Shown: positions 23,868 to 58,736 of the stretch, one piece after another
How the letters are laid out: each line of letters starts with the position of its first letter
How positions within the stretch are numbered: the first letter of the stretch is position 1
Assembly (NCBI GenBank): GCA_913009825.1
Contig: CAJVYQ010000010.1
Span: 43,281 to 107,280, forward strand
Length of the DNA: 64,000 nt
Direction of reading: 5' to 3'
Origin: an uncultured Deferribacteres bacterium
Lineage (GTDB): Bacteria > Zhuqueibacterota > JdFR-76 > DREG01
Translations under genes and position numbers: made by a program
The notes under the pieces: model-generated
What the model was told of the DNA's origin: nothing
Databases searched by the model: none
Seen by the model: the letters and a program-made list of their open reading frames with translations, nothing else

Positions 23868-23985
23868 TTTGTGTCTGTCCGAAAATACCCCATAAAATTG
23901 TCATTCCGGCAATCTTCCAGCCGCCTGTCTGCACAGGCAGGCGGCTGGAAACATGCGGGAATGACCAGTTCGGACAAACACTAAT
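23868..23985. repeat. Family D repeat copy 1, in front of the NSS transporter
   Basis: Outer inverted ends are GTGTCTGTCCGAA and TTCGGACAAACAC. Inside is a nested palindrome (GTCATTCC...GGAATGAC, then TTCCAGCCG...CGGCTGGAA) with the 18-bp module CCTGTCTGCACAGGCAGG at its axis (23924-23941). It lies 31 bp before the transporter start. Confidence 0.8.
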
Positions 23986-24016
23986 TTGTATGTTGGAAGG
24001 CGCAACAGGAGAGAAA

Positions 24017-25474
24017 ATGGAGGTGAAAGAACAGTTTACATCCCGTTGGGGTTTGTTGCTGGCGGCAATTGGAATGGCCATCGGTGCCGGAAATATCTGG
24101 CGGTTCCCTCGTGTAGTAGCACAAAATGGCGGCAGCGCCTTTTTGATTCCGTGGGTGATTTTCTTATTTCTTTGGTCCATTCCCTTATTAATTGCGGAAT
24201 TTGCCATTGGTAAACATACCCGCCGCGGTACTATCGGTTCATTTGCAAAAATAATGGGAGAAAAATATGCCTGGATGGGAGCTTTTGTCGGTTTTGTGAC
24301 CATCGGCATCATGTTTTACTATTCGGTTGTTTCCGGCTGGAGTCTGTCTTATTTTATTCAGGCGGTTTCGGGGAAGTTGGCCGCCAAGGCAGATCAACAG
24401 GTTTACTGGCATCAATTTACCTCGTCCTATTGGCCTTTATTATACCACTTTGTGGCCATATCAATGGCGGGATATGTTATCTATAAAGGGGTTGTCGCCG
24501 GCATTGAAAGGGTCGCAAAAATTTTTATTCCCCTGCTGCTGATACTCATGCTCATTGCCGCCGTGCGGGCTTTGTTCCTGCCCAATGCAGTAGCCGGTTT
24601 GAACTATCTGTTTTATCCAAATGTTGAGAAGCTGCTTGATTTTCGCGTTTGGCTGGAGGCTCTTTCTCAATCGGCGTGGTCTACGGGCGCCGGCTGGGGG
24701 CTGATCCTGACTTATGCGGTGTACATGAAGCAGAAAGAAGATATCAACCTGAACGCTTTCATCACCGGTTTCGGCAATAATTCCGCATCTTTAATTGTGG
24801 CGATTGCCATTATCCCCACGGTTTTTTCGTTACTTAGTCAACCGGACGCGTTAGCTGCCATGGATTCCGGTAATACCGGCCTGACTTTCATTTGGATTCC
24901 CCAGTTGTTCGATGAGATGCCGTTGGGACGCCTGTTCTCTTCGGTGTTTTTTCTGACACTGTTCATCGCTGCCATCTCTTCGCTAATCGCTATGGTAGAG
25001 CTGGCCGCAAGAATTCTGATGGATTTTGGCCTGAACCGGAAAAAAGCCGTGCTGTATGTTTGGCTGAGTTCTTTGCTGTTTGGCATCCCTTCCGCTCTGT
25101 CGCTGGGTTTCTTCAATAATCAGGATTGGACCTGGGGAGTGGGATTGTTGGTGAGCGGTTTTTTCTTTGCCATTGCGGTGAATAAATATGGCGCGGAAAA
25201 CTTCCGTAATAAGCTGGTTAACTCGTCTCCTAATGATATCAGGGTTGGACGCTGGTACAGTTTTTTGCTCCGTTTTGTCATTCCCATCGAATTTGTTGTC
25301 TTAATTAGCTGGTGGTTTTACCAGGCTATCACAACTTATGAACCGCACAGTTGGTGGAATCCATTTTCTACGTACAGTATGGGAACCTGCCTGTTCCAAT
25401 GGGGGATTGCCATGATTTTGTTCATGCTGTTCAACAAAAAAATAGTCGCCAATATCAAACTGGAGGAAGTATGA
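24017..25474 (+). CDS. Sodium:neurotransmitter symporter (NSS) family amino-acid transporter
   Basis: A 485-residue inner-membrane Na+-coupled transporter of the LeuT fold. The start ATG 24017 has AGGAGAG a few bases upstream; the longer frame from 23861 only translates the family D repeat. The opening SRWGLLLAAIGMAIGAGNIW holds the unwound TM1 segment that binds Na+ and substrate, and WRFPRVVAQNGGSAFLIPW is the family signature. About 12 hydrophobic segments follow. Its stop overlaps the start of a MetS-like small protein (ATGA), the known arrangement of MetP-MetS methionine/alanine importers, so small neutral amino acids are the likely cargo. Confidence 0.92.
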   Translation: MEVKEQFTSRWGLLLAAIGMAIGAGNIWRFPRVVAQNGGSAFLIPWVIFLFLWSIPLLIAEFAIGKHTRRGTIGSFAKIMGEKYAWMGAFVGFVTIGIMFYYSVVSGWSLSYFIQAVSGKLAAKADQQVYWHQFTSSYWPLLYHFVAISMAGYVIYKGVVAGIERVAKIFIPLLLILMLIAAVRALFLPNAVAGLNYLFYPNVEKLLDFRVWLEALSQSAWSTGAGWGLILTYAVYMKQKEDINLNAFITGFGNNSASLIVAIAIIPTVFSLLSQPDALAAMDSGNTGLTFIWIPQLFDEMPLGRLFSSVFFLTLFIAAISSLIAMVELAARILMDFGLNRKKAVLYVWLSSLLFGIPSALSLGFFNNQDWTWGVGLLVSGFFFAIAVNKYGAENFRNKLVNSSPNDIRVGRWYSFLLRFVIPIEFVVLISWWFYQAITTYEPHSWWNPFSTYSMGTCLFQWGIAMILFMLFNKKIVANIKLEEV

Positions 25475-25572
25475 AACTTGCTGCCGTGATTTTTATGATC
25501 GTTATGCTGACTATTGTGTGGGGTGGTTTTATTTTTCTTCTGGCGTTTGCCTCCCGGCGCGAAAAAAATTAA
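25471..25572 (+). CDS. MetS-like small membrane subunit of the NSS transporter
   Basis: A 33-residue protein beginning MKLAAVIFMIVMLTIVWGGF, with one membrane helix and a basic tail ending FASRREKN. Its ATG overlaps the TGA of the transporter (ATGA), and GGAGGAAGT precedes it. Size, topology and position match MetS, the small subunit required by MetP-type NSS importers. The W-G-G pattern in the helix and the basic tail are as in MetS-like proteins. Confidence 0.82.
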   Translation: MKLAAVIFMIVMLTIVWGGFIFLLAFASRREKN

Positions 25573-25594
25573 AAGCTTAATCGATCGAGGGTTC

Positions 25595-26599
25595 ATGAAA
25601 TATCAGGACTTTATCAAAGAAATTCTTGCCGGAAAATTTGTTCCGGTCTATTTTTTTTACGGCGATGAAATCTATTTTATCGATGAAGGTGTCGGTAAAA
25701 TCGAATCGAAATTTGTTTCCTCTTCGTCGGCCAATTTCAACCGGGATGTTTTTTACGGGGAGGAAGCTGACGCTGCCCAAATTGTCAATACGGCTTTTTC
25801 CATTCCCATGATGGCGACACAGCGGGTGGTTATTGTTAAAAATTTCCAGCGTCTCTCCCAGTCGGGCAAGGAGTTGATCGTTAAATATTGCAACCGCCCG
25901 TCGCCGCAAACCATTCTTGTCCTGATTGCCGAAAATGTAGATATGAGAAAAAAAGTCTACGTGGCATTGAAAAAAACGGCACAAGTTGTTGAATGCAAAT
26001 CACTTTACGATGCACAGGTTCCTGTTTTTATCCGGCAATATGTTAATGATAAAGGAAAAGATATCCGGCTTTCTGCCATTCATCTGTTACAGGCAAAATT
26101 GGGCAATTCCCTGAATGAATTGATTAATGAAACGGATAAGCTGATGAGTTTTGTCAGCGACAAACAGGTGATCGATGTTACTGACGTTGAGGAATTGGTG
26201 GGCATTTCACGAAATTACAACGTTTTTCAGTTATGGGATGCCCTGGGTGCACGGAACCTGTCAAAAAGCCTTTTGATATTAAGACAAATGTTGGAAACCG
26301 GAGAGAGGTCTGTTGGTATTGTCACTTCATTGACAACTTATTTCTTGCGCCTCTGGCGAATCCGCTCTCTGAAAAGTCAGAATGTTTCGAATAGTGAAGT
26401 CGGTAAAAAACTGCGAATTCACCAATTTTTTCTTCAAGCCAGTATTAAACAGGCTCAACAGTATTCAACCAAGGAAATAAAAAAGATTATGCGTCTTTTG
26501 CTGGATGCCGATATTCATCTTAAATCCAGTTATCAAAGTCAGCGTGTGGTTTTGGAATTGCTTCTTTTGCAGATCGTCACCGGAAAAAAATCAATATGA
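25595..26599 (+). CDS. holA: DNA polymerase III subunit delta
   Basis: A clamp-loader subunit that opens the beta sliding clamp. The start ATG 25595 has GAGG just upstream; the longer frame reads through the MetS-like gene. The 334 residues have the family layout: VYFFYGDEIYFIDEGVGKIE at the N-terminus, FSIPMMATQRVVIVKNFQRL, the LGNSLNELINETDKL AAA+ lid region, and a C-terminal helical collar with ALGARNLSKSLLILRQML. As usual in delta, the ATPase motifs are degenerate. It is 22 bp after the small membrane gene. Confidence 0.9.
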   Translation: MKYQDFIKEILAGKFVPVYFFYGDEIYFIDEGVGKIESKFVSSSSANFNRDVFYGEEADAAQIVNTAFSIPMMATQRVVIVKNFQRLSQSGKELIVKYCNRPSPQTILVLIAENVDMRKKVYVALKKTAQVVECKSLYDAQVPVFIRQYVNDKGKDIRLSAIHLLQAKLGNSLNELINETDKLMSFVSDKQVIDVTDVEELVGISRNYNVFQLWDALGARNLSKSLLILRQMLETGERSVGIVTSLTTYFLRLWRIRSLKSQNVSNSEVGKKLRIHQFFLQASIKQAQQYSTKEIKKIMRLLLDADIHLKSSYQSQRVVLELLLLQIVTGKKSI

Positions 26600-26668
26600 T
26601 GGTCTGGCAGCTAAAACATAAATTGAATTTTTCCGTATATCTTTGAAACGGGAACGTGAATAAAAAAG

Positions 26669-27298
26669 ATGACTGATTTGGACCAAAAAGAACGATATCA
26701 AAAAAGAAAAAAAAGGCAACGGGAACTCAGCAACTTATCCGATGAAGATCTGATCTTTCTTTTCCAGGACGGGGAGTTGCCGGCGTTCGAAGAGATTGTC
26801 AACCGGTACAAAGATCCCCTGATGAATTTTGTGTTCCGTTTTCTGGGTGATAAATCGGAATCGGAAGATGTGGTACAGGAAACCTTTTTGCGGGTGTTCA
26901 GAAATAAACGGGCATACAAAAAGATAGCTAAATTTTCAACCTGGATTTACACTATCGCCGGAAATCTGGCCAAGACTGAATTACGCAAACGGAAGAAACG
27001 TAACCTGGCTTCAGTAAGTGACCTTGGTTACGATGATAAGGATTTTGAAATTTCCGACGAAAGCTCCAACCCGGAGAAAAAGACCAATACGGTGATGTAT
27101 GAAGAGATCATCCAGGAGGAAATTGGAAAGCTTTCTGCCAAATTCCGCGAGGTAATTATATTGCGAGATATTCAGGAACTTTCGTATGAAGAGATAAGTA
27201 AAATCATCAAAGTTCCGCTGGGTACTGTGAAGTCGAGAGTGAATCGTGCCCGATTGCGGTTGCAGGAAAAATTGAGATTTTTATTAGAGAAAAAATGA
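26669..27298 (+). CDS. ECF-type RNA polymerase sigma factor
   Basis: A 209-residue extracytoplasmic-function sigma-70 factor. Region 2 is seen in LPAFEEIVNRYKDPLMNFVF and DVVQETFLRVFRNKRAYK, with the FSTWIYTIAGNLAKTELRKR part that melts the -10 element. Region 4 is SYEEISKIIKVPLGTVKSRV, a helix-turn-helix that reads the -35 element. A zinc-finger anti-sigma factor follows 69 bp later and a secreted HtrA-like protein after that, so it is probably released by envelope stress. Confidence 0.92.
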   Translation: MTDLDQKERYQKRKKRQRELSNLSDEDLIFLFQDGELPAFEEIVNRYKDPLMNFVFRFLGDKSESEDVVQETFLRVFRNKRAYKKIAKFSTWIYTIAGNLAKTELRKRKKRNLASVSDLGYDDKDFEISDESSNPEKKTNTVMYEEIIQEEIGKLSAKFREVIILRDIQELSYEEISKIIKVPLGTVKSRVNRARLRLQEKLRFLLEKK

Positions 27299-27367
27299 CG
27301 ATATTTACAGATAAAAAGTTTTGGAATCTTAGAATTCTGTTTTGGATGTTATTGAAGGAGGAACCGG

Positions 27368-28003
27368 ATGACAAGTTGCGACAAATTTGTACCCCTTTTT
27401 ACAGAGTATCTCGACGGCAATCTTTCAGGTCAGTCAAAATCGGAATTTGAAGAACATATTCAAAGCTGCTCCGATTGTGCACAGACCGTGCAGCACTTGA
27501 AAACGCTGCAGGTTCAATTGAAACAACTCACTCCTGTTAAAACTTCGGATGCGTTCAACGTTATTTTAAGAAGCCGCATCAGGTATGAATTGGAAAAACC
27601 TTCTCTCTGGGACCAGGTTGTCACCTATTTTCTGGTAAATCGCGTCCCTGCCTTTGCTACCGGATTTGCCATGCTACTTCTCGTTTCATTCTTCTCATAT
27701 AGCCTGTTTTTTCGATCGAATGATCGATCGGATGTTTTTGTCCCGGTTGAAGTGGCCAACGAACAGCCGATTGCTCAGACCTTTTATCCCTCTTCAAAAA
27801 AGAGCAATCAACCGGCAAAACAGGATGTTTATTATGTGATCGATCAATTTCGGATCGAAGAAGTTTTGGCAGACCGGCAAAAAGGTGATAACCATCTCCC
27901 GGCTCTAGCAGCTCAGGCCATTCATTTTGACACACTTCATACAATTCAACCGGCGCCCATTAAAATTATTCGGGCTGCTCATCCAACTTCCGTTTGTTTT
28001 TGA
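27368..28003 (+). CDS. Membrane-anchored zinc anti-sigma factor
   Basis: A 211-residue protein with an N-terminal ZAS domain (CDKFVPLFTEYLDG; EHIQSCSDC gives H-x3-C-x2-C) that should bind and block the sigma factor, then a linker and one membrane helix near residues 93-115 (VPAFATGFAMLLLVSFFSYS). The C-terminal 95 residues would be periplasmic. GGAGGAACC lies just before the ATG. It sits between the sigma gene and the HtrA-like gene. Confidence 0.88.
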   Translation: MTSCDKFVPLFTEYLDGNLSGQSKSEFEEHIQSCSDCAQTVQHLKTLQVQLKQLTPVKTSDAFNVILRSRIRYELEKPSLWDQVVTYFLVNRVPAFATGFAMLLLVSFFSYSLFFRSNDRSDVFVPVEVANEQPIAQTFYPSSKKSNQPAKQDVYYVIDQFRIEEVLADRQKGDNHLPALAAQAIHFDTLHTIQPAPIKIIRAAHPTSVCF

Positions 28004-28015
28004 GGTGGTTGATAA

Positions 28016-29203
28016 ATGAGAGAAAAAGGTTTCCAAACGACAGTGTTTCTATCCGTTCTCATTTTGATTTTCAATCTGGTCTCGGTGAGAACGTCCGGTG
28101 CCCAGGTAACGGTGCAAAAATCGTTGAATGATGAATACAACCGGTTGATACAGATTTCTCAGAAATATGTTGTCGGAATTGTTGCCCAGGTTGGGGAAGA
28201 ATATCTGAAAAATCAGTCCCTTTCAGTGCAGGCTCCCTTAAAAAAGATTGCTTCGGGTTGTATTATCGATAGTTCAGGTATTGTTATTACAAGCAGCAGT
28301 GTCATTCAAAACATATCCCGCATTTCTGTGATTTTATACAACGGAGAGCGGCGGGATGCTTCACTTATCGGCATCGACAATAATTTTGCAATTCTTCATA
28401 TTCGTAATCTTCCCTTTGCCAATCCGCAATTTGCACAGATGAATTCTGAAAGAATCGGCAACTTTGTTTTAATCATCGGTAACTCCTTAAATTACCTGCC
28501 TGATGTGTGGATCGGTCAGGTACGCACGGTCTACGAGAATGGAATGCTGCAGATCGCTGCAAAAATATTACCCGGTAGTATCGGTGCACCGGTTTTTAAT
28601 TTACGCGGCCAGATGGTTGGCGTTTTGACGGCAAAATTGATCCAGGGGAAACGAATGCAAAAAGCGGATGATTTGACGGTTGAAGATGACGGTGTGGTTA
28701 TCTCGATGACACAGTTGCTGCCCGGTGTGAAACATCTTCTCGATCAAACGAGAACGGGCGTAGCCTGGATAGGCATGACGGTAACCGGCTATCCCAGGGG
28801 AAACCGGAATGTTTTTTATAAAGTGAGCCAGATTTCCACCAACAGTCCGGCTGAAAAAGCCGGCATCCGGCTTGGTGATGAAATATTGGCTTTTAATAAT
28901 GAGCCTATCCATGATCTTATAAAAATTCAGAACCTTATTAAATCGATGCCGGTTTCACAGCGTGTGGAATTTAGAATCAGAAGGGGAGATTCAACGTTTG
29001 CTATACCCATCCAACTGGACAGAAAGCCGGCACTCTATGCGGCCGGTTCCATTTCAAAAGTGAGGAAACCGCAAAAATCGATGGCGGGGTTGGCAAAATA
29101 TCCATCCTCGCAGGTAACGCGGCTACTAATGCAGAAAAGACTTTCGCAAATAGACATGCAGATTCAGTTGTTAAAAAAACAGATGTTCAATAAAATTCCG
29201 TAA
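28016..29203 (+). CDS. Secreted HtrA-like pseudoprotease with PDZ domain
   Basis: A 395-residue exported protein: signal peptide to about residue 29 (SVRTSGAQ cut region), a trypsin-like domain to about 250, a PDZ domain at about 270-340 (SPAEKAGIRLGDEILAFNNE), and a helical tail. All three HtrA catalytic positions are changed: the histidine of TNNHV is S95 (ITSSSVI), the aspartate of DLAVL is N123 (NNFAIL), and the serine of GNSGGP is I189 (PGSIGAP). The fold elements around them (PVFNLRGQMVGVLTA) are kept, so it is a maintained non-proteolytic homologue and not random decay. It starts 12 bp after the anti-sigma gene; sensing or scaffolding for that pathway is the natural guess. Confidence 0.87.
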   Translation: MREKGFQTTVFLSVLILIFNLVSVRTSGAQVTVQKSLNDEYNRLIQISQKYVVGIVAQVGEEYLKNQSLSVQAPLKKIASGCIIDSSGIVITSSSVIQNISRISVILYNGERRDASLIGIDNNFAILHIRNLPFANPQFAQMNSERIGNFVLIIGNSLNYLPDVWIGQVRTVYENGMLQIAAKILPGSIGAPVFNLRGQMVGVLTAKLIQGKRMQKADDLTVEDDGVVISMTQLLPGVKHLLDQTRTGVAWIGMTVTGYPRGNRNVFYKVSQISTNSPAEKAGIRLGDEILAFNNEPIHDLIKIQNLIKSMPVSQRVEFRIRRGDSTFAIPIQLDRKPALYAAGSISKVRKPQKSMAGLAKYPSSQVTRLLMQKRLSQIDMQIQLLKKQMFNKIP

Positions 29204-29358
29204 ACAAATTCATTCTCAGGGGAAGTCTTTTCATACTATAATTTCTTTTCATTCCTGATCCGGTTTCGTGCCGATGTTCTGTTTAAGAACTTCCCTTTTT
29301 ATGTTGATTTTTGAGATTTATTTACTATATTTAAATTCACTAAAAATGGGAAGCTTAA

Positions 29359-30642
29359 ATGACCGAACAACAAGAATATGCCAATACTTCGCTGTTGCGC
29401 AATATCGATGAGCGTATCTTGTTAGGTTTATTGGCGACTGCTGTGTTGGTCGGCTTTTTCATCTTTGATATTTTCAGTCAATCGATTCTGACACAGTTTG
29501 TGCGTGTCGTTTTGATTGTGGCCGCATTTTTATTAATCTACTTAGTTTGGCCCGGTTCGATTGAGGAGGAGGTAGAGGATCAGACGGATGAACCGGATGA
29601 ACAGGCAGCGGTGCAGCATCTGGTTGATAATACCGATCCTGCAAGTTTCTTCCCCGAAGAAGAAAAAATGGACTTCTATGAGGAGTTGGGTCAGTTCTTT
29701 GGCAATCTAGTGAAAATGGTGCGCGCTACTTTCGTTGCTCATTCCGCCATCATTTTTATGTGGGATGGCGCCGAGGAACGGCTGCGTGTAGACTTTTGTG
29801 AAAGCCAGAGCAATGCCATTCAGCAGGGCGATTTTGTGGATGTTAAGGGTACCTTGCCCGGCAGTGTCCTGGTTAACCAGACCGCTGTTTTGGAACAAAA
29901 TATTCCCGATGAGGGACAATCGATCAATTACTACCATGATTTAAAGGGGATCAAGTCCTTCTTAGCGGTGCCGATCGATATTAAGGATGAAGTTCAGGGC
30001 GTGCTGGCGGTGGACAGCATGGTGGCTCATGATTTCAGCGAAGAAGACCTGGAATTGTTGAAATCGTACGAAAGATTGATTAGCCAGGGGATCGATTTAA
30101 TTGGCGTGAGAGAAAGATCACAGTTGGTTAATCAGTCATTGATGGCGCAGAGAATTTTTTTATCGGAGTTGAATGAAGATCTTTCCTACGAAAGTCTCTA
30201 TTCCTCGGTGGGAAGCGCCTGCCGGGCTGTTTACCAATTCGACCGGCTTACCATCGCTGCCATCGACTCAGAAAGTTCGGAGATGGGGGTGATCACCAAA
30301 GTGATCGGCCAGCGGGACAATATGAGTGAGGGATTTCGGTTTGCGCTGGGCGACGGAATCTCCGGCTGGGTCATCAGAAAAAATCAACCGTTGATGCTTG
30401 GAGACCTGGAAAAAGGCGAGCTGTTCCGTCCTCGTTATTCCGGCAGAGACAAGTCGAATTTCGGTCTGCGTTCTTTTTTGGGAGTTCCTGTGGCGTTTCG
30501 CAACCAGATATTCGGCATGATTAGTTTGGAAAGCAAACAGCCGGAATTTTATACCGAATGGGATCAGAATGTTATGATGTTGTTGGCAGCAAATGTTGGT
30601 TTGGCGTTTCTGTCTTTACGTTTACTGCCAAATAAAGTGTAG
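29359..30642 (+). CDS. Membrane protein with two GAF domains
   Basis: A 427-residue protein with two membrane helices at about 21-40 and 45-64, an acidic linker (EEEVEDQTDEPDEQAAVQHL), and two GAF-type domains at about 95-255 and 270-422 (for example SFLAVPIDIKDEVQGVLAVD and RSFLGVPVAFRNQIFGMISL). No kinase, cyclase or HD output domain is present. GAF domains bind small ligands or mediate dimerisation. It lies 155 bp after the HtrA-like gene, and whether it belongs to the same stress system is unclear. Confidence 0.82.
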   Translation: MTEQQEYANTSLLRNIDERILLGLLATAVLVGFFIFDIFSQSILTQFVRVVLIVAAFLLIYLVWPGSIEEEVEDQTDEPDEQAAVQHLVDNTDPASFFPEEEKMDFYEELGQFFGNLVKMVRATFVAHSAIIFMWDGAEERLRVDFCESQSNAIQQGDFVDVKGTLPGSVLVNQTAVLEQNIPDEGQSINYYHDLKGIKSFLAVPIDIKDEVQGVLAVDSMVAHDFSEEDLELLKSYERLISQGIDLIGVRERSQLVNQSLMAQRIFLSELNEDLSYESLYSSVGSACRAVYQFDRLTIAAIDSESSEMGVITKVIGQRDNMSEGFRFALGDGISGWVIRKNQPLMLGDLEKGELFRPRYSGRDKSNFGLRSFLGVPVAFRNQIFGMISLESKQPEFYTEWDQNVMMLLAANVGLAFLSLRLLPNKV

Positions 30643-30674
30643 AAGTGATGTAACATAATTAATTTGGAGGAAAA

Positions 30675-30878
30675 ATGGCAAAAAAGGGTACATCGTTTGC
30701 AGATAAAGTAAATAAAATGCACAAGGCAAATGTAACCATTTGTCCCGTTTGTAACACCGAGACTCAACGGGTGAAATTGGTAAAATCCATGCGATCGGAA
30801 CACTCAAATGGCTGGCGTTTCAAACAAATGATGGTTGATGTCTGCAAATGTAATGAAAGCGAGGTTTATCCCGCGTAA
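30675..30878 (+). CDS. Small zinc-ribbon-like protein, unknown function
   Basis: A 67-residue basic protein with CPVC near residue 23 and a CKC near 58, spaced for one metal site. TTGGAGGA precedes the ATG. Its TAA shares one base with the ATG of rdgB (TAATG), so the two are translationally coupled. I do not recognise the family. Confidence 0.65.
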   Translation: MAKKGTSFADKVNKMHKANVTICPVCNTETQRVKLVKSMRSEHSNGWRFKQMMVDVCKCNESEVYPA

Positions 30879-31504
30879 TGGCCGGGCCAACGCCACGTAT
30901 GATTTTAGCCACGCGCAATCAGGATAAACTGCGTGAAATCCGGGCGGTTTTAACGGATATGGATCTCCGCATCCTTAGTATGGATGATTTCCGGGATTTT
31001 CCCGAAGTGGAAGAAACCGGCACAACACTCATCGAGAATGCCGTCAAAAAGGCAAAAGAGATTTATCAGTTCACCGGGCTTCCGTCTTTGGCTGATGATA
31101 CCGGTTTGGAAGTAGATGCTCTCGATGGTGAACCGGGGGTTTATTCCAGCAGATATGCCGGTGAAAATGCCACTTATCATGATAATGTGGTAAAATTGCT
31201 GCAGGAATTAAAAGATACGCCCGCCGACGCCCGTTCCGCCAGATTTCGCACCGTGATAGCTTTGGTTCGAAATGAGAAAATTTTTACGGTAGAGGGGATT
31301 CAGAAAGGGGAAATTCTATTTGAACCCAGGGGCAATAGCGGTTTTGGTTACGACCCGGTTTTCTATATTCCGGAATTTAACCAAACTTTTGCCGAAATGT
31401 CGCTGGAATTGAAAAACAGCATCAGCCATCGCGGTAAAGCGCTTATGAGGATGAAGGAAGTACTTGCAACCCATTTCGATGAGGTCTTTCATGCGGAAAA
31501 TTAG
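30878..31504 (+). CDS. rdgB: dITP/XTP pyrophosphatase (RdgB/HAM1)
   Basis: Removes non-canonical purine triphosphates (dITP, XTP) to protect DNA and RNA. The 208 residues contain MILATRNQDKLREIRAVL (the TxNxxK motif), ETGTTLIENAVKKAKE, SLADDTGLEVDALDGEPGVY with catalytic acidic residues, and GFGYDPVFYIPEFNQTFAEM, ending SHRGKAL. The gene overlaps its upstream neighbour by one base and the following lipoprotein gene by 14. Confidence 0.95.
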   Translation: MAGPTPRMILATRNQDKLREIRAVLTDMDLRILSMDDFRDFPEVEETGTTLIENAVKKAKEIYQFTGLPSLADDTGLEVDALDGEPGVYSSRYAGENATYHDNVVKLLQELKDTPADARSARFRTVIALVRNEKIFTVEGIQKGEILFEPRGNSGFGYDPVFYIPEFNQTFAEMSLELKNSISHRGKALMRMKEVLATHFDEVFHAEN

Positions 31505-32249: not shown

Positions 32250-32254
32250 ATGTT

Positions 32255-32287: not shown

Positions 32288-32341
32288 CATTCTCGCCTGG
32301 AAGGTTCGAACTTTCCGGAAGGTTTATTTAAAAATTGTTGC

Positions 32342-32370: not shown

Positions 32371-32389
32371 TAAAGCTCGAATTTTGCTT

Positions 32390-32465
<76 letters not shown>

Positions 32466-32505
32466 CTTTTAATCTTTTACAACTCATGTAACCGGCTTTA
32501 CTGTT

Positions 32506-33634: not shown

Positions 33635-33641
33635 AATTTGA

Positions 33642-33748
33642 ATTGAGCGTTTGCAGGGCGATTTGCTGAATCGCCAAACGGATTCGGATTAAAAATAAAA
33701 ATCCGTTTAGTAATAAAAACAAGCTCAAAAATAAGAGAATCGTTCAAT
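33642..33748. repeat. 107-bp family B repeat, copy 2 (reverse)
   Basis: Ends ATTGAGCGTTT and AATCGTTCAAT; the palindrome GGCGATTTGCTGAATCGCC lies near the left end, so this copy is inverted relative to 10238. It starts 7 bp after the deoC stop and is exactly 107 bp long. Confidence 0.85.
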
Positions 33749-33765
33749 TAAGGTAAATATAATTG

Positions 33766-42976: not shown

Positions 42977-43008
42977 GGGGATTGAGGATAGATTAAATTT
43001 ATACTTGA

Positions 43009-43133
43009 ATTGAGCGCTTGCAGAGCAATTCGCCTGTCTGCACAGGCAGGCTGAATCGCCAACCGGATTTACACAAAAAATGAAAACCCGTTTGGTGACA
43101 GAATTAAGCTAAAAAATAGGGGAATCGCTCAAT
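43009..43133. repeat. Family B repeat copy 3 with an 18-bp insertion (125 bp)
   Basis: Ends ATTGAGCGCTT and AATCGCTCAAT, reverse orientation. It is 125 bp long instead of 107. The extra 18 bp (CTGTCTGCACAGGCAGGC) split the small palindrome of the family, giving ATTCGC, insert, TGAATCGCC. The unsplit form is seen at 33656. Confidence 0.88.
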
Positions 43134-43163
43134 TCCGGATTTAGTATTTAGACAGAATAAGAG

Positions 43164-43223
43164 AACATCCCCCGTACCACCCTCAAGGGAGGACTTTTAT
43201 AGTCCCGGGGGATACGGGGGATG
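43164..43223. repeat. Inverted repeat between surface-protein genes
   Basis: ACATCCCCCGTA and TACGGGGGATGT are a perfect 12-bp inverted pair 36 bp apart. Similar CCCCC..GGGGG material lies at 46185-46245 and 56615-56640 inside other repeats. Confidence 0.65.
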
Positions 43224-43299
43224 TAAAAAACTTTCCCAATTCCTTTTATACTTATCTTTCAATTTCTGCGGCCGAATTTAATATTTCCGAACAATCAAA

Positions 43300-43353
43300 T
43301 TGGTGATTCAGCCTGCCTGTGCAGACAGGCGAATCGCCCTACAATCGCTCAAT
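43300..43353. repeat. Partial family B repeat copy 4 with the same insertion
   Basis: Right part only: TGGTGATTCAGC, then CTGCCTGTGCAGACAGGC, then GAATCGCCCTACAATCGCTC and AAT. The 18-bp insertion is at the same place as in copy 3. The left end is not recognisable. Confidence 0.8.
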
Positions 43354-43453
43354 TGTGTATGAATTATTCAATCAAAAATGAAAACCGATAAATTGGATGA
43401 AATTGATGCGATAATTTGTTACATTAAAAAAAATTATCGGAAAGGAAAAAGTC

Positions 43454-46138
43454 ATGCGTAAAACCGGGTTCGTTTCTCTGCTTATTTTGTTCTCATTTAC
43501 TTCCCTTTTTGCCCAGTTGGAGTCGTCAGAAAACGATAAAGAACAGTTGGCGCAGATGGAGGCGGATCGCTTTGCCAAGCTTCAATATGCAAATTTGCAG
43601 ATTACGGACAACCAGACAAATTATGATGTACGTTATTATGATATCAACATTCAGGTGCTTCCCGAAATGACCATGCTGGCGGGAAATGTTGCCTTGAATG
43701 CGGATGTAGTGAATAGCCCTGTCAGTCAGATAGAGGTTAATTTTCTGGATGATATGCAGGTGGATAGTGTGAGGGTTGCCGGCCGGGATGCCTCATTTAC
43801 GCACAGCGATGATCTGATCCGGGTTCAATTAGATAAAACATACCAACCCGGTGAAAAAGTAACGGTACGCATCTTTTACCACGGCACTCCGTCGCAATCC
43901 GGGTACGGCGCTTTCGGGTTTGATTATTACGCCGGCCAGCCTATGATCTGGAGTTTGAGCGAACCGTTCGGGGCAAGAAACTGGTGGCCGTGCAAAGATA
44001 TTCCGGCCGATAAAGCAGATTCGGTGGACATGAGACTTACAGTGCCGCAAAACCTGGTTGCAGTTTCCAACGGACTGCTGTTCTCCGTAACATCCTCCGG
44101 AGATAAAAAAATCTATTGGTGGCATGAAAAATATCCGATTGCGTCCTATCTGGTTTCCGTGGCCATTCACCCTTACGCACATTTCAGTGATTCTGTATCG
44201 GTAGTTCCCGGCAGCAAAATGCCCATCGATTATTATGTTTATCCCTCGGAATTGAACAATGCCAAATCAGCTTACGCAAAAACAAAAAGAATGATAGAAA
44301 TTTTCTCCGATCTCTTTGGTCCCTATCCTTTTTATGAAGAAAAATACGGACACGCGCAATTCCTGGGCGGTGCCAACATGGAACATCAAACCATCACCAG
44401 TTTACGAACCTACAGCGAATCAACCATCGCGCATGAGTTATCTCACCAATGGTGGGGAGATAATATCACCTGCCATGATTTCGGTCACATCTGGCTGAAC
44501 GAAGGGTTCGCCACTTATTCGGAAGCTCTTTGGAAAGAATTTTATTATGGTAAACTGGATTATCGTTTGAACATGAATGCTAAAATGTATTTCGGTGACG
44601 GCACTATCTTTGTCTCCGATATGAGTGTCGGGAATATTTTTAATTACAACCGAAGTTATCGCAAAGGTTCCTGGGTGCTGCACATGCTGCGCCACGTTGT
44701 CGGGGATAGTATTTTTTTCGATATCTTAAAAGCATACAAGTCCGATCCCCGTTACAAATACGGCACTGCAACTACGGAACAATTCGAGCAGGTATGTGAA
44801 GCCGTATCCGGCAAAGATTTACACGATTTTTTCCACCAATGGATTTACGAAGAATATTATCCGCAGTATGTTTTCAATTCTTCGGTAAAGGATAGCAGCG
44901 GCAAATTTGTAACGACGGTAAATATTTATCAGAAACAAACCAATACAATTCTGTTTCACATGCCTGTCGATCTGCTGTTCCGGTTTGCCGGCGGTGATAC
45001 TGTCATTGCTGTGGATAATTTCCTCGCTGAACAAAAGTATCGGTTCGTATTTGAACAAAAACCGGTTGCCCTGCAGTTAGACCCGGAGAACTGGATTTTA
45101 AAAACGGTTCGTGAAGAATTGTTACAGCCAAAATTTGATAGAGGAATTTTATTGGTAAACGGTGTGGATTGGCAAACTTACGGCAATGAAATACAATCTC
45201 TTTACTTAGACAGTACGCTGTGGAGTGATTTTCCCATCTCTTTTTGGGATTGTTTTCAGGAACCCGGTGATGGTTATCCTTCATCTTTGCCGCAACCCGA
45301 AGGAACAGGCAGAGTGCCGTCGGATATTTTAGGGCAATATTCCACGGTGATTTGGGTTGGCAACGATTACAAAGGGGACCTCGACGCCTGGAAAAATACC
45401 AATATTTCCGGTTACCTGAAGGCGGGCGGCAACGTTTTGCTTTTTGGCCGCCACGGTCGCAGTTTTATTGATCAGGAATTGGAAGACTATTTGGGTATCC
45501 AATGGCGGGAAAGCAGTAATAACACGCTTGCCAATTGTCAGTCTTCTTTTGCCGGACTGAGCGATGTGAGTTTTACCGGCAATCAAAATAACAACGCAGT
45601 GTTCGATACAAGTTTTACCCAGGCGGAAACTGTGCTGCTTTTTAAGGATACAAAAGCGTTCTCCGAACCGCGCGGTCTGGGCGCTTGGCGTAAACCTGCA
45701 GCCGGCGGGACTTTGCGTAACAACGGCGGCCGGTTTATTTTCATCAGCGGCAGGCCATACCGTTTTGACCATACACAATTGAGAAAGAACGCGGCCTACA
45801 TTTTAGGCACTTTTTTTGAAGAAAACAAAACACCCGGCACCGGCGCATCTTCTCAACCGGAGGCATTTACGCTGGTTAGTAATTACCCCAATCCTTTCAA
45901 AGGGAAAACGGACATCACCTTTCAATTGATCCGTTCTGCCGATATTTCCGTTTCCATCTATAATTTGCTTGGCCGGAAAATTAAAACACTTCATCGGGGG
46001 AAATTGCGTATCGGTAAATATCATTTTCTCTGGAACGGCGACGATGAACAATCGATGAAAATAGCCCCCGGTATCTATTTTTTGCGCATTCGGCAGAATG
46101 GTTTTATTAAAAGTATTAAGTTGGTTAAGTTAAAATAA
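43454..46138 (+). CDS. Secreted M1-family metallopeptidase with T9SS sorting domain
   Basis: An 894-residue exported aminopeptidase-like protein. After the signal peptide (ILFSFTSLFAQ) comes the beta-saddle domain with DVRYYDINIQVLP, then the gluzincin core with zinc ligands H327, H331 and E350 (HELSHQWWGD, NEGFATYSE), and the substrate-binding GGANMEHQTITS in place of GxMEN. Residues about 560-790 form an extra domain resembling a glutamine-amidotransferase-like fold (ILLVNGVDWQTYG, GGNVLLFGRHGR). The end is a type A T9SS sorting domain (LVSNYPNPFKGKTDITFQLI to the C-terminus). It would act outside the cell on peptides. Confidence 0.93.
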   Translation: MRKTGFVSLLILFSFTSLFAQLESSENDKEQLAQMEADRFAKLQYANLQITDNQTNYDVRYYDINIQVLPEMTMLAGNVALNADVVNSPVSQIEVNFLDDMQVDSVRVAGRDASFTHSDDLIRVQLDKTYQPGEKVTVRIFYHGTPSQSGYGAFGFDYYAGQPMIWSLSEPFGARNWWPCKDIPADKADSVDMRLTVPQNLVAVSNGLLFSVTSSGDKKIYWWHEKYPIASYLVSVAIHPYAHFSDSVSVVPGSKMPIDYYVYPSELNNAKSAYAKTKRMIEIFSDLFGPYPFYEEKYGHAQFLGGANMEHQTITSLRTYSESTIAHELSHQWWGDNITCHDFGHIWLNEGFATYSEALWKEFYYGKLDYRLNMNAKMYFGDGTIFVSDMSVGNIFNYNRSYRKGSWVLHMLRHVVGDSIFFDILKAYKSDPRYKYGTATTEQFEQVCEAVSGKDLHDFFHQWIYEEYYPQYVFNSSVKDSSGKFVTTVNIYQKQTNTILFHMPVDLLFRFAGGDTVIAVDNFLAEQKYRFVFEQKPVALQLDPENWILKTVREELLQPKFDRGILLVNGVDWQTYGNEIQSLYLDSTLWSDFPISFWDCFQEPGDGYPSSLPQPEGTGRVPSDILGQYSTVIWVGNDYKGDLDAWKNTNISGYLKAGGNVLLFGRHGRSFIDQELEDYLGIQWRESSNNTLANCQSSFAGLSDVSFTGNQNNNAVFDTSFTQAETVLLFKDTKAFSEPRGLGAWRKPAAGGTLRNNGGRFIFISGRPYRFDHTQLRKNAAYILGTFFEENKTPGTGASSQPEAFTLVSNYPNPFKGKTDITFQLIRSADISVSIYNLLGRKIKTLHRGKLRIGKYHFLWNGDDEQSMKIAPGIYFLRIRQNGFIKSIKLVKLK

Positions 46139-46140
46139 AG

Positions 46141-46315
46141 GTAACACTTCAGTTTTTTGAATAATGTGATATAATCCCTCCTATTACTTCCCCCTGGTAA
46201 GGGGAGGTATTTCCCCTCCTTTAAAGAGGAACCGGGGGAGGTTGCATCCTCCCAACTATGGATCCGGCGCTTTAAACGGGAGTTTGGTAAAATTTTTCAA
46301 AAAACTAAAATGTTA
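46141..46315. repeat. GTAAC-bounded repeat, family C copy 2
   Basis: The ends GTAACACTTCAGTTTTTTGA and TCAAAAAACTAAAATGTTAC enclose 175 bp. The interior has CCTCCTATTACTTCCCCC and CCCGTTTAAAGCGCC-like stems unrelated to copy 1. It begins two bases after the peptidase stop codon. Confidence 0.85.
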
Positions 46316-46771
46316 CAAATGAAGTTTTTTCGCTTTGTCCACAGAAAAGAGCTGCCATAGACTTTATTTTACTGATCTGATGTGGTTTGGCAAGAATGTC
46401 ACTCTATCTTTAAATTTAGCGCAGCTTTCGCCAACATTTAGTGGTTTGTAAAGCGACGAGATTCGTCGCTCTACAAGAGACAAATCGGGTTTTAACCGGG
46501 AAATATCACAAAAAGTAAATAGCAACTCTTTTAAAAATAGGTTGTCGATTCAGCGAATCGACCTACAATCACTCAACCGTAGACTTGATTTTAATGTCTG
46601 TGGCATCTTACTTCTGCGGCTTGATTTAATATTTAAAGCGATGATTGTTTTTCTTCACCGGATAACAAACCCTGTTTCCTTCTCTCATTTTCCTCTTGCA
46701 TTTCTGCGAGACTCTTTGTTATTTAATTGCATGCAATCCCACAATTTCATCTTAACATGAAAGGATACCAC
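46316..46771. other. Gene-free stretch with a partial family B repeat
   Basis: No supported gene. GACGAGATTCGTCGCTCTAC lies near 46456, and the right part of a family B element (GTCGATTCAGCGAATCGACC then TACAATCACTCAAC) lies at about 46543-46578. The remainder is the leader of the next peptidase gene. Confidence 0.6.
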
Positions 46772-48838
46772 ATGAAACGATTCCATTTCATTTTTCTGTT
46801 GTTTCTTATTTTCTCCTGTACGGCTTTGGCGCAGCAATCTACTCTGGAAAATCGGCCGGTGCTGTTTTCCCAACCGCTGAGTCCGCGGATTGCCGGTTAT
46901 GACATACGGGTCAGGCTGGATACAGAAAAACGGCTGCTGCACGGCAAGGAAATTTTGCACTGGCGCAACGATTCCAAAGATGTGATCCGTGATTTACAGT
47001 TTCATCTGTATCTCAATGCGTTCCGCAATAGCGAATCCACATTTATGAAAGAATCCGGCGGCGTGAGCCGGGGCAACAAAATCGATAAAGACGGGTGGGG
47101 GTTCAGCAAAATCAATTCGGTTACGCTCCCCAACGGCGAAGAACTGATTAAAAATATGGAATTTATCCATCCGGATGATGACAATGAACATGACAAGACC
47201 GTTGTCCGTATCGAATTGAATAAACCGCTGCCGCCGGGGAAAACCATCGATCTGAATATTGATTTCACGGCCAAACTGCCCAGTCCTCCATTTGCACGAA
47301 CCGGCGCCCAAAAGGAGTATTTTTTTGCCGGGCAGTGGTTTCCTAAAATCGGCGTCTACCAGGATGGGGGGTGGAATTGTCATCAATTCCATGCTAATTC
47401 CGAGTTTTTTGCCGATTACGGCAACTACAACGTTTGGATTACGGTACCAAATAAAAATATTGTCGGCGCCACCGGGCTGGAAGTGAATGTGAAGCAAAAT
47501 GACGACGGCACCGCTACCCACTATTATCATGCCGAAGATGTGCACGATTTCGCCTGGACAACCAGTCCGGAATTTAAGGAATTCACCGGCGAGGCGCAGG
47601 GGGTGAAAATCCGTTTACTGATGCAGCCGGATCATGCCTATCAGGCGGAACGGCATCTGGCCGCGGCAAAAGTGGCGCTGGATTATTTTCATAAATGGTA
47701 CGGGACATATCCGTTTCCCAATTTAACGATTGTAGATCCGCGCCGCGGGGCGGCGGGTTCGGGCGGCATGGAGTATCCCACTCTGATCACCGCCGGAACC
47801 GCGTACGGTATTCCCAAAGGTCTGCGCATGGTCGAAATGGTGATCATTCATGAATTTGGTCACAACTACTGGTATCACCTGATTGCTTCCAATGAATTCG
47901 AGGAACCCTGGATGGACGAAGGGATCAATTCTTATTCAGAATCTCAAATCATCGATGATTACTACGGGCCCGCAGGCTCTGCAATCGATTTGTTCGGCAT
48001 CAAGATGAACGATCTGCAGGTGCACAGAATGCGCTATCTGACGGCACCCGACGTGGACAAAATGGTGGAAACCTCCTGGGGTTTTTATTCAGGCAACAGT
48101 TATGGTACAAACTCCTATTCCAAACCGGCGGTAGTGCTGACCACACTGCAAAATTATCTGGGCAAGGAGAAGATGCTGCAGGTGATGCACGCCTATTTTG
48201 AACGCTGGAAATTTAAACACCCCAAAACTCAGGATTTTATCGATGTGGTCGATCAAGTTTCCGGCCGGAACCTGGACTGGTATTTCAATCAGGCTTTCTT
48301 TTCCAACGCCGAACTGGATTACAGTGTGGACCGGGTTTCCACACGCAAGCTGGCGGAAGATAAAGGCTTCGATTACAATCTTTCTGTTGAAAAAGAACTT
48401 GCCGGAAAGGATTCTACGTCAGATAGCACGGCAGCCGGTTCCGGGGATTTGGATTCAACCGCCGGCGCTTCCACCGATTCAACCGAAGAATCTTCTCTCT
48501 ACGTCAGTCGGGTAAATATTCGCCGGTTGGGCGATTTCATCTTCCCCGTCGAATTGCAGGTCGTTTTTGATAACGGCGATACTCTTCGTGAAAATTGGGA
48601 CGGAAAGAATTTGTGGAAAAAATACCGCTACGTCAAACCGGCTAAATTGGTTTCGGCAACCGTAGATCCGGATTACAAAATCCCGTTAGACATCAATTAC
48701 ACCAACAACAGTAAAATGGTGAAGAAACCTAAAATGGGTGTCAACAAACTGGCCATTCGTTTCTTATTCTGGATGCAATTCTTAATGGATCAGCCTGAAT
48801 TTTTAAATCTGTTCTCCGGTTTAAAAAGGGGCGCCTGA
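46772..48838 (+). CDS. M1-family metallopeptidase without a sorting domain
   Basis: A 688-residue exported protein beginning MKRFHFIFLLFLIFSCTALA; ATG 46772 has AAAGGAT six bases upstream. The zinc site is H360-E361-x2-H364 and E383 (HEFGHNYWYH, MDEGINSYSE), with GGMEYPTLITAGT as the substrate motif. An Asp/Ser/Thr-rich linker (DSTSDSTAAGSGDLDSTAGA) occurs near residue 550. Unlike the neighbour at 43454 there is no T9SS domain, so it may stay in the periplasm or outer membrane. The C-terminal segment KLAIRFLFWMQFLMDQPEFL is hydrophobic. The cysteine at residue 16 might also allow lipidation. Confidence 0.9.
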   Translation: MKRFHFIFLLFLIFSCTALAQQSTLENRPVLFSQPLSPRIAGYDIRVRLDTEKRLLHGKEILHWRNDSKDVIRDLQFHLYLNAFRNSESTFMKESGGVSRGNKIDKDGWGFSKINSVTLPNGEELIKNMEFIHPDDDNEHDKTVVRIELNKPLPPGKTIDLNIDFTAKLPSPPFARTGAQKEYFFAGQWFPKIGVYQDGGWNCHQFHANSEFFADYGNYNVWITVPNKNIVGATGLEVNVKQNDDGTATHYYHAEDVHDFAWTTSPEFKEFTGEAQGVKIRLLMQPDHAYQAERHLAAAKVALDYFHKWYGTYPFPNLTIVDPRRGAAGSGGMEYPTLITAGTAYGIPKGLRMVEMVIIHEFGHNYWYHLIASNEFEEPWMDEGINSYSESQIIDDYYGPAGSAIDLFGIKMNDLQVHRMRYLTAPDVDKMVETSWGFYSGNSYGTNSYSKPAVVLTTLQNYLGKEKMLQVMHAYFERWKFKHPKTQDFIDVVDQVSGRNLDWYFNQAFFSNAELDYSVDRVSTRKLAEDKGFDYNLSVEKELAGKDSTSDSTAAGSGDLDSTAGASTDSTEESSLYVSRVNIRRLGDFIFPVELQVVFDNGDTLRENWDGKNLWKKYRYVKPAKLVSATVDPDYKIPLDINYTNNSKMVKKPKMGVNKLAIRFLFWMQFLMDQPEFLNLFSGLKRGA

Positions 48839-49029
48839 TTTTTCAGAATCAAGCATAATGCAGGGCGACGAGATTTATCATGATGAAACAAACTGCCAAA
48901 GTTTATTTTTGGATTCCCATCAACATTGCGTATGCTCTGAAAATAATAACTGCGTTTTTTGGGATTGAATAAAAAGTTTGGCAGTTTATTTACAGTATAT
49001 CGACAAACATATTATAAAGGAACAAAAAA

Positions 49030-49956
49030 ATGGTATTGAATAGCATTAAATCCGGCATCCGCCAGGTTCTGCAAACCAAACGAATGATCATGGTGTTTTT
49101 CCTGACAAACTTTTTCTTTGCGCTGCTCATCATGCTTCCGTTCCGGGGCGCGCTCAGCCATTATATCGACGGCAGTATGATGGGGGAAACCCTTGGCGGC
49201 CGTTTGAACATGGACTTCTTGTACGAATTTATTCTTCACCAGGGTGGGGCGCTTCCGGCAATCAAAAGTTTGATTCTTGTTGTCCCGCTTGTATATTGGC
49301 TGATGAATCTGTTCCTGTCCGGCGGCGCTTTTTCTGTTTTTGCCGGCGGTGAAAAATATCAACCGGTGCAATTTTGGGGCGGCGCTGCCGCTTACTTCGG
49401 CCGTTTTTTCCGCCTGTTTTTATGGGCAATTCCGGTTTTTGCCGTTTTATTTTGTTTGCAATTTTTGATAACCGCCGGTGTGAAAATTTTCTTTGGCAGT
49501 GATCCGTACCAAAATATCACTTTCTGGGCCGGTTGGCTCAAGGTCGGTTTTCGCTATCTCAGCATTCTGTTGTTCTGGCTGGTGCTGGATTATGCCCGGA
49601 TTTATACCGTCATCCATGATGAACGAAAAATGCGCAAATCCATTTGGCACGGAATTCGCCTCACATTTGGCAATTTGGCAAAAACTTTTGGTTTGGCCTT
49701 TTTGTTATTTGTGGTGGGCGTCATTGTCCTGATCATTTATAATCCGCTGGCGAATCTGTTTTCAGCACCAAATTCACTGGTTATTCTGCTGCTTTTTATT
49801 TTACAGCAGGTATATATGGTTTTCAGAATGGTTTTGCGGTTGACACTTTATGGCGGACAGATGCAGTTGTTCCGGCAGATATCTGAACAAAAAAACAGCA
49901 CCGGGGACGATTTTCAGCCGGATACGGGATTGGAAGATGCGCAAATCGCTACCTGA
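49030..49956 (+). CDS. Polytopic membrane protein, unknown function
   Basis: A 308-residue inner-membrane protein with about six hydrophobic segments (for example IMVFFLTNFFFALLIMLPF, LILVVPLVYWLMNLFLSGGA, LAFLLFVVGVIVLIIY). A conserved-looking cytoplasmic patch has DYARIYTVIHDERKMRKSIW. The overall form resembles the membrane part of GDPD-associated and DUF4013-like proteins, but I cannot assign a function. Confidence 0.7.
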   Translation: MVLNSIKSGIRQVLQTKRMIMVFFLTNFFFALLIMLPFRGALSHYIDGSMMGETLGGRLNMDFLYEFILHQGGALPAIKSLILVVPLVYWLMNLFLSGGAFSVFAGGEKYQPVQFWGGAAAYFGRFFRLFLWAIPVFAVLFCLQFLITAGVKIFFGSDPYQNITFWAGWLKVGFRYLSILLFWLVLDYARIYTVIHDERKMRKSIWHGIRLTFGNLAKTFGLAFLLFVVGVIVLIIYNPLANLFSAPNSLVILLLFILQQVYMVFRMVLRLTLYGGQMQLFRQISEQKNSTGDDFQPDTGLEDAQIAT

Positions 49957-50050
49957 TTTTTTGTATCGTCATGCTTTTACGCTTCGGCCGAAGACCGGGA
50001 AATGTAAATCGTTTCCCGTTGTCCGTTCAATGTAATGCAGAGGATTAACA

Positions 50051-50398
50051 ATGGATTTTCAAATAAAATATGAACCTAATGAAAACGTCACCATTGTAGA
50101 AATTCCGGAAAGATTGGATTTGAACAATTCAGGTGAATTACGAAAATTGTTTAGTGATCTGGTTAAACAGGGACAATTCAGATGGGTGATGAATCTGGAA
50201 AATACGGAATATATCGATTCCAGCGGTCTGGGAGCTTTTGTTTCCCAGATCGCTGCCTGTCGCGCGAACCGGGGAGATATTCATATTGCGGCACCGTCTG
50301 AATTTGTTTCGTCTCTGTTAGAAGTAACTCATTTGAAAAAGGTGCTCAAGTCTTTCGATCATGTCCGGTCTGCGGTGGAGGATTTTCCGGGAAGCTAA
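50051..50398 (+). CDS. STAS-domain anti-sigma factor antagonist-like protein
   Basis: A 115-residue single STAS domain of the SpoIIAA/RsbV type. The phosphorylatable serine lies in NTEYIDSSGLGAFVSQ (S57/S58). Such proteins release a sigma factor or a phosphatase by partner switching with a HATPase kinase. No RsbW-like kinase or PP2C gene is in the window, so the partner is elsewhere. The stop codon is inside a 10-bp hairpin. Confidence 0.88.
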   Translation: MDFQIKYEPNENVTIVEIPERLDLNNSGELRKLFSDLVKQGQFRWVMNLENTEYIDSSGLGAFVSQIAACRANRGDIHIAAPSEFVSSLLEVTHLKKVLKSFDHVRSAVEDFPGS

Positions 50399-50421
50399 CC
50401 TTCTCAAGGCAGGTTAGCTTC
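50391..50421 (+). terminator. Hairpin at the end of the STAS gene
   Basis: GAAGCTAACC and GGTTAGCTTC pair perfectly around an 11-base loop and include the TAA stop. A short T-rich tail is lacking, so termination strength is uncertain. Confidence 0.5.
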
Positions 50422-50476
50422 TGCTGTCCATTATTGTCTGTTTGCAGACCAAGCCGGATTGAAAAGATAAAAAATC

Positions 50477-50622
50477 GTAACACTTTAGTTCTTTGAAAAA
50501 CAGCAGTCAATTATGGGGTTATCATTCCCGCATGCCCCTATCGGCCTGTCTGCACAGGCAGGCCGATAGGGGCATGCGGGAATGATAACTTAGTGTGTCG
50601 CTTCAAAAAACTAAAGTGTTAC
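50477..50622. repeat. GTAAC-bounded repeat, family C copy 3, with 31-bp perfect hairpin
   Basis: The outer ends GTAACACTTTAGTTCTTTGA and TCAAAAAACTAAAGTGTTAC enclose 146 bp. Inside, positions 50518-50548 and 50559-50589 are exact inverted copies (31 bp), with the 18-bp module CCTGTCTGCACAGGCAGG centred on the axis (50545-50562). The element ends 38 bp before the prenyltransferase start. Confidence 0.9.
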
Positions 50623-58725: not shown

Positions 58726-58736
58726 TTAGATAATAT

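Follow-up and report, generated by a model that had tools for sequence, protein, structure and literature searches.

An 18–20 bp module inserted into repeats and genes of an uncultured Deferribacteres genome, likely a very small non-autonomous mobile element

The window analyzed here is a stretch of 64,000 nucleotides (contig CAJVYQ010000010.1, positions 43,281 to 107,280, forward strand) from assembly GCA_913009825.1 of an uncultured Deferribacteres bacterium. It contains four exact copies of an 18-mer, CCTGTCTGCACAGGCAGG, and at up to three mismatches it holds five matches to this 18-mer, compared with 0.03 expected from shuffling. The copies, termed modules below, lie in three kinds of host repeats (B, C, and D) that resemble miniature inverted-repeat transposable elements (MITEs), some of them built around pairs of repetitive extragenic palindromes (REPs). 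The features are as follows, in window positions; within a sequence, a slash marks the point of insertion.

10233 to 10349, minus strand: empty host B copy, tip GATTCGCTGAATC, module absent
17854 to 17871, plus strand: module variant CCCGCCTGCACGGGCAGG in a CACTACAAAGGTAC-type repeat
23869 to 23983, plus strand: host D, MITE-like element with terminal repeats TTGTGTCTGTCCGAA and TTCGGACAAACACTA and a collapsed inverted REP pair inside
23924 to 23941, plus strand: exact 18-mer on the axis of a palindrome with 9-bp arms flush with the module
33637 to 33753, plus strand: empty host B copy
43004 to 43138, plus strand: host B, MITE-like, ends CTTGAATTGAGCGC.. and ..AATCGCTCAATTCCGG, length about 117 bp when the module is not counted
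43033 to 43050, plus strand: exact 18-mer at the tip of host B, a site of the GATTCG/CTGAATC type
43302 to 43358, minus strand: truncated host B copy
43312 to 43329, minus strand: exact 18-mer in the truncated host B copy
50477 to 50622, plus strand: host C, MITE-like element with terminal repeats GTAACACTTTAGTT and AACTAAAGTGTTAC, a collapsed and symmetrized inverted REP pair
50545 to 50562, plus strand: exact 18-mer on the axis of a near-perfect palindrome at 50518–50589
53820 to 53973, plus strand: host whose D-type terminal repeats enclose the REP pair with the 53876 module
53876 to 53894, plus strand: module variant CCTGCCCGCCGCAGGCAGG in the stem, not the tip, of a CGTC-like REP (GCGAAAGCAG/GAAT)
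57485 to 57503, plus strand: module variant CCTGCCCGACACAGGCGGG in a TTGAGTG/GAGTCGAA repeat
58614 to 58730, minus strand: empty host B copy

The initial annotation had reported the four exact copies, which are confirmed, as well as variants near 53877 and 17850, which are real and lie at 53876–53894 and 17854–17871. Its statement that each exact copy sits at the center of a longer palindrome holds fully at 23924 and 50545, approximately at 43312 (arms GATTC and GAATC, offset by 1 and 2 nt from the module), and weakly at 43033, where the arms ATTC and GAAT extend for 4 bp before a mismatch; it is not general genome-wide. The arm in family C measures 27 bp outside the module (35 bp counting half of the module) rather than the 31 bp given there. 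Finally, of the three families described as unrelated, B does differ, whereas C and D share one kind of inner REP pair and are distinguished by their terminal repeats.

In the complete 5.1-Mb genome, the exact 18-mer is present in 40 copies (26+14), and the reversed-pattern control has none. It is the commonest type within a family of 18–20 bp modules. The family pattern, CCYG[TC]CYG and CRG[GA]CRGG separated by 1–4 nt with at most one substitution, identified 153 members in a sample of 2,056,200 bases (40% of the genome), which also served for the junction census, and zero members with the reversed control. Although the pattern admitted lengths of 17–20 nt, the observed lengths are 18 nt (50 modules), 19 nt (85), and 20 nt (18).

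The modules are mostly localized within other repeats. Host B is a MITE-like element of about 117 bp with CCTGAATTGAGCGATT at one end and the complementary sequence at the other. Hosts C and D, also MITE-like, have unlike ends around the same kind of interior, namely, a pair of REP hairpins, of the GTCATTCC..GGAATC type, in inverted orientation. Further hosts are the TGTCATTCTG/AAAGAATC, GCGAAAGCAG/GAATC, GTGTCTTT/GTGCC, and GCTGAGCG/GAGTCG repeats. Three host B copies (L116, L118, L119) have, by eye, apparent 5-bp target duplications (TAGCA, AATAA, and TTAGA, respectively), so that host B itself is likely a MITE of some transposase. A plasmid similarity search with host C yielded no matches.

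Evidence for insertion comes from empty copies of the filled sites. For each module, 30+30 flanking bases were joined and the sample was searched for an uninterrupted copy, the empty sites used being paralogous ones from the same genome. An empty counterpart was found for 110 of the 153 modules, compared with 21 of 278 same-length control deletions placed 40 bp away (Fisher p 1e-44); an earlier run with a looser junction filter gave 86 of 107. Twenty-nine empty sites match at two or fewer mismatches in 36 bases and eight at 36/36, and one filled/empty pair of host B (L174:11435 and L225:15323) is identical over all 60 flanking bases. When removal of exactly the module was compared with that of 1–8 bases more (on one side only) or 1–3 bases fewer, it was among the best-fitting deletions in 94 of the 110 cases, and uniquely so in 93. 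Since exact removal fits best, the ends of the unit are fixed and the target is not duplicated. A 2-bp GC duplication around a 16-bp core, a scheme suggested by host B and a single D site, did not hold for the other hosts or for either of the genes described below. That an 18–20 bp unit with fixed ends was inserted into these sites is well supported.

Two modules interrupt genes. The first is an exact 18-mer that lies in frame and adds six residues to a 467-codon transposase open reading frame (ORF; Pfam DDE_Tnp_1_4) with one DNA match in the genome. These residues are absent from all 119 other listed homologues (120 listed of 1231 found), in which sequence is present on both sides of the gap; two of the listed homologues are named as IS1380 family members. 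The second, 19 bp long, is located close to the end of an integrase-like ORF, whose nearest homologue among those listed, 98% identical over 83%, continues without it; by a string test, the module-encoded residues LSATGR occur in 0 of 120 listed homologues. Judged from these comparisons of sequences, the modules were evidently gained, not lost, in both genes, because the listed homologues (119/119 and 120/120) are without them.

In the sample, host B is represented by 70 copies, 60 empty and 10 filled; eight of the latter contain the 18-mer, always in the same orientation, two contain CCTGTCCGACTCAGGCGGG, and no other insert was seen, so that two different module types occupy an identical junction. 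The flanks of the filled copies depart from the consensus at 55 of 460 positions (12%), compared with 0.099 per position in the empty ones, whereas the inserts have no private mutations. In a tree of all 70 copies, which is based on about 118 columns and poorly resolved (45 of 67 inner branches open, nine rows with long end branches), the filled state requires nine changes for the ten filled copies. Well-supported branches force at least five of these changes, and filled and empty copies occur together in two supported groups of related copies (2/7 and 2/11 filled). As few changes are seen in 192 of 500 label shuffles; hence, the filled copies are not clustered.

The scatter of filled sites over this tree is also what one would expect if the module were ancestral to its hosts and had frequently been lost, with no mobility involved, by precise deletion of a small hairpin through replication slippage, and the G/C flanks in host B would offer slippage a microhomology of about 2 bp. 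However, the homologues of the two genes indicate gain there, host B is empty in 60 of 70 copies, its inserts lack private mutations while their flanks are 12% off consensus, and some hosts (TGTCTTT/GTGCC) have no microhomology. Ancestral presence followed by loss is thus strongly disfavored already, and we regard it as extremely improbable.

A second alternative is that a few rare insertions came first and that modules have since spread only passively, by gene conversion and recombination between repeats. Many hosts are indeed abundant repeats, module types partly track hosts, and the collapsed forms described below suggest recombination between modules. On the other hand, the same 18-mer resides in hosts whose flanks are unrelated, as well as in a gene that has a single DNA match in the genome, and the two types at the identical B junction are difficult to reconcile with this scheme. 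Exclusively passive spread therefore appears unlikely, and it is the module itself that seems to move, rather than being distributed only by recombination between repeats.

The junctions show a sequence preference. The tetramer ATTC immediately before the junction, on either strand, characterizes 0.33 of 31 clusters, compared with 0.019 at slid positions (p 5e-5, an optimistic value, as the clusters are not fully independent), and YTC/ characterizes 0.48, compared with 0.06 (31 clusters, p 5e-5). G or C flanks both sides of the junction in 0.74 of clusters versus 0.23. This last feature, together with the lack of a duplication and of a linked enzyme, could be accommodated by error-prone repair that copies "filler" into breaks using short GC-rich homology, with no dedicated element. 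Yet the inserts are full-length modules with fixed ends (94/110 best at the exact module) rather than variable filler, and their interleaved complementarity, considered below, is conserved; we give the repair explanation only a slim chance.

The initial annotation had proposed that a small sequence enters hairpin tips. Its first part, a small sequence entering other repeats, is strongly supported by the empty and filled copies of the same sites and by the two gene insertions. As a general target, hairpin tips are rejected by folding: the probability that the junction lies in a hairpin loop averages 0.27 over 31 clusters, equal to the 0.27 mean of neighboring positions (permutation p 0.45). For some hosts the junction does lie in a loop (0.67 for family B and, in part, 0.47 for the TGTCATTC..GAATC family), whereas four of the six largest clusters have loop probabilities of 0.03–0.11, two of these being in stems beside GAATC. 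A strict-stem test of tips gave a mean of 0.19 versus 0.09 expected for 35 clusters, and 3.7 versus 2.4 for the 25 clusters with empty sites. Of the 39 exact copies collected (of 40), 15 have exact arms that are 5 bp or longer and no more than 3 nt away from the module, in an uncontrolled count comprising 13 copies in host B and the window's C and D copies; the other 24 of the 39, a majority of the kind that the initial annotation had itself named as refuting its proposal, lie outside strict palindromes, a definition that omits imperfect ones, e.g., L007, L019, and L028. Insertion by something that recognizes hairpin tips, for which the loops of hosts B and TGTCATTC..GAATC and the 15 axial copies would speak, is accordingly very unlikely in view of the 31-cluster mean and the stem positions.

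The axial position in hosts C and D may have another origin. Elements of these two types were observed in several forms: free of modules, with a spacer between the REPs and one or two modules, and with one module but no spacer. The last class comprises, by our own reading, 14 copies, including both flush palindromes of the window; they were taken from 16 single-module spacer-free rows among the 81 rows of the REP-pair survey (L015 and L310:13435 were left out), a survey that also takes in several rows of other repeats and in which L164, L179, and L231 were counted as one-module forms although the hairpin they show is that of the REP. Arm symmetry reaches 0.94 in L011, the window copy at 50545, and 0.97 in L095. 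The center of the latter (C6:80061-80207) is a nearly perfect 68-bp palindrome in which the module itself is symmetric (CCTGTCTGCACAGACAGG), suggesting hairpin-templated correction.

A plausible route begins with an inverted REP pair that has a module in each half. The spacer would be lost through recombination between the modules, or through slippage, so that a single module remains between inverted REP arms. Hairpin-templated correction would then bring the quasi-palindromic arms, and in some cases the module as well, to near-perfect symmetry. As far as the sequences indicate, collapse of two-module REP pairs would best explain the C and D axial palindromes, and fits them better than insertion at tips. 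It suggests a concrete route to long near-perfect palindromes. Host B needs no such collapse, its junction being the tip of a short hairpin.

Within the module, the complementarity is of an unusual kind. Perfect nested pairing, as in a hairpin, is found in only 8 of 153 modules, and the nested pairing score is below all of 2000 shuffles. If the module is read as four tetramers in the order 1-2-1'-2', with 1 paired to 1' and 2 to 2', this interleaved pairing reaches 6.97 of 8 versus a shuffled mean of 6.44, and 6.78 versus 6.33 for the 86 distinct modules; 0 of 2000 shuffles, which ignore the relatedness of modules, attain either value. Among composition-matched classes of the four variable bases, the interleaved ones (T,A,C,G and C,G,T,A) account for 54 of 153 modules and the nested one for a single module. 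Hand counts of interleaved versus nested modules are 9 versus 0 in G001, a genome of the same family, and 12 versus 9 in other genomes, among the matches listed, many of which are possibly chance. Folding alone of two modules of this genome, on both strands, gives one half-stem at the 3' side, whereas a 20-mer from other phyla folds as a nested hairpin; the interleaved reading thus rests on this genome and, by hand count, on G001. The arrangement possibly reflects alternative half-hairpins, or two interleaved half-sites of a protein about one helical turn apart. Of the other schemes considered, a simple palindrome with conserved wobble was replaced by the interleaved one on the comparison of pairing with shuffles, and an intramolecular pseudoknot was not adopted, as almost no linker nucleotides would be left.

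Taken together, these observations make it likely that the modules are a very small mobile element of the non-autonomous kind. An enzyme acting in trans would copy the module, probably via a single-stranded intermediate, into ATTC-type sites, with a preference for 5'-ATTC/C-3'. The module probably ranks among the smallest known mobile DNA elements. Several points weigh against this interpretation. No empty counterpart was found in the sample for 43 of the 153 modules, and a deletion other than the exact one fits better in 16 of 110 cases. The ATTC rule is not absolute, since about two thirds of the clusters and both gene sites differ from it, and the REP-type hosts on which its p-value partly depends share GATTC arms and ancestry. 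The pairing shuffles likewise take no account of relatedness, and gene conversion between repeats could explain part of the patchy host B pattern, or add changes to the tree. Finally, no enzyme has been linked to the module: the Y1_Tnp profile has nine matches in the genome, and module-like sequences within about 1.5 kb were found at four of these nine loci (three distinct modules, two loci overlapping), no clear excess over the approximately 1.7 estimated from density for seven gene places. The two longest Y1_Tnp open frames, L216 and L218, have no module-like sequence within about 1.5 kb. In the window, decayed Y1_Tnp (PF01797) remnants with several stops are located at 21859–22118 (C10:65139-65398).

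In its behavior, the module resembles other very small mobile elements, namely, the small dispersed repeats (SDRs) of Nostoc and organellar hairpin elements. SDRs were reportedly described by Elhai and co-workers in 2008 as dispersed units of 21–27 nt inside minitransposons and other repeats, SDR4–6 being said to have a common secondary structure with compensatory changes. Both SDRs and modules are dispersed units of about 20 nt within other units, and precise insertion, which in SDRs reportedly targets other repeats or a fixed octamer, is seen here into other repeats (110/153; 94/110). Compared by description, not by sequence, the module is slightly shorter (18–20 versus 21–27 nt), and has an ATTC-type target and a compensatory pattern of complementarity that is interleaved, unlike a nested stem. 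SDR5 inserts precisely into HIP1 (PMC4390886), and SDRs, as well as IS608, are mentioned in PMC3116915.

Organellar hairpin elements, namely, yeast GC clusters (PMC4478555), Volvox palindromes, which are inserted into one another (PMC2670323), and sponge repetitive hairpin elements (PMC2800124), resemble the module in being short and hairpin-forming or GC-rich. The yeast mitochondrial GC cluster GC42, optional at its sites, is given a putative AG target duplication in PMC4478555; the module has none and is found in a bacterial chromosome, not an organelle. Hosts C, D, and 53820–53973 resemble CGTC-tagged REPs in inverted pairs (PMC3733652; for REPs and REPINs, PMC3116915), and CGTC-tagged REPs are described in the former as having no association with transposase genes. 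The module is not itself a REP: it lies inside REPs, lacks a link to a Y1 gene, and has no conserved GTAG tag, as GTAG or CTAC occurs in 5 of the 153 modules without a fixed place. Terminal inverted repeats with a target-site duplication, the marks of a MITE, are not seen either, exact removal being among the best fits in 94 of 110 cases and the gene inserts being exactly 18 and 19 bp.

Elements of the IS200/IS605 group (Y1/HUH) insert without duplication next to a short preferred sequence and have an arrangement of subterminal hairpins and guides. The module is comparable in part: it causes no duplication, ATTC is strongly enriched before the junction, though in only a third of clusters, and the eight sampled 18-mers in host B have a single orientation. 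It differs in that 18–20 bp is too short for subterminal hairpins with guides, and in having no linked transposase. Because this genome has dozens of pairs of filled and empty sites, two insertions into genes, a target preference, and a conserved internal architecture, it makes testable what moves a unit too short for the recognition ends of a known transposase. More tentatively, and with doubts outweighing confidence, one may envisage an undescribed class: a transposing unit of 18–20 bp with two interleaved 4-bp complementarities about one helical turn apart, placed in fixed orientation next to ATTC by a trans-acting enzyme, present in scattered phyla, and remodeling REP pairs and genes. If so, it would be the smallest mobile DNA outside cyanobacteria, moved by a mechanism not yet described. 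A literature search returned no description of the module, and none by its letters; with most subscription papers outside its scope, this is weak evidence of novelty.

In a search of 59 genomes of relatives, including its own, the exact 18-mer was found in this genome only. A gapped pattern had 149 forward and 156 reverse matches in the own genome (many modules match both strands), 13+7 in the family mate G001, none in the other family mate, G002, and at least one in 49 of 147 genomes. Unlike modules abut in tandem at L182:14211-14246, L189:1675-1711, and L276, the latter in G001. Small homogeneous sets outside the phylum include, in G135, nine copies of a 20-mer built on the same scaffold and, in G128, four copies. 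The six retrieved of the nine G135 copies of CCTGTCTGCCGACAGGCAGG (L264, L267, L272, L275, L280, and L283) have a common flank, AAACAAATT, before the module, which places that set, too, within one repeat family.

In a wider contig collection, the exact 18-mer was found in 40 stretches, in most assemblies once; by eye, most of these single matches in other assemblies are probably chance. Multiple carriers are one Anaerolineae assembly (five stretches with six copies) and Chloroflexi K_DeepCast, Bacillota CSMAG_528, and Nitrospinota UBA9963, with two stretches each, and there is no cyanobacterium among the named carriers. The six copies in Anaerolineae S014_14_esom (Chloroflexi; L045, L048, L064, L042, and L074) have a common flank, ..GG before the module and CA(C/T)ACCAC(A/G)GC after it, one copy having an extra CAGG, and constitute a separate set in another phylum. 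The search for the exact 18-mer also returned seven viral contigs. In L069 (Ca. Lloydbacteria), the exact 18-mer lies inside an apparent transcription-terminator hairpin, between AAAACCCCG and CATTGCGGGGTTTT. In the window itself, the sole Rfam match at the gathering threshold is a tRNA gene at 32390–32463.

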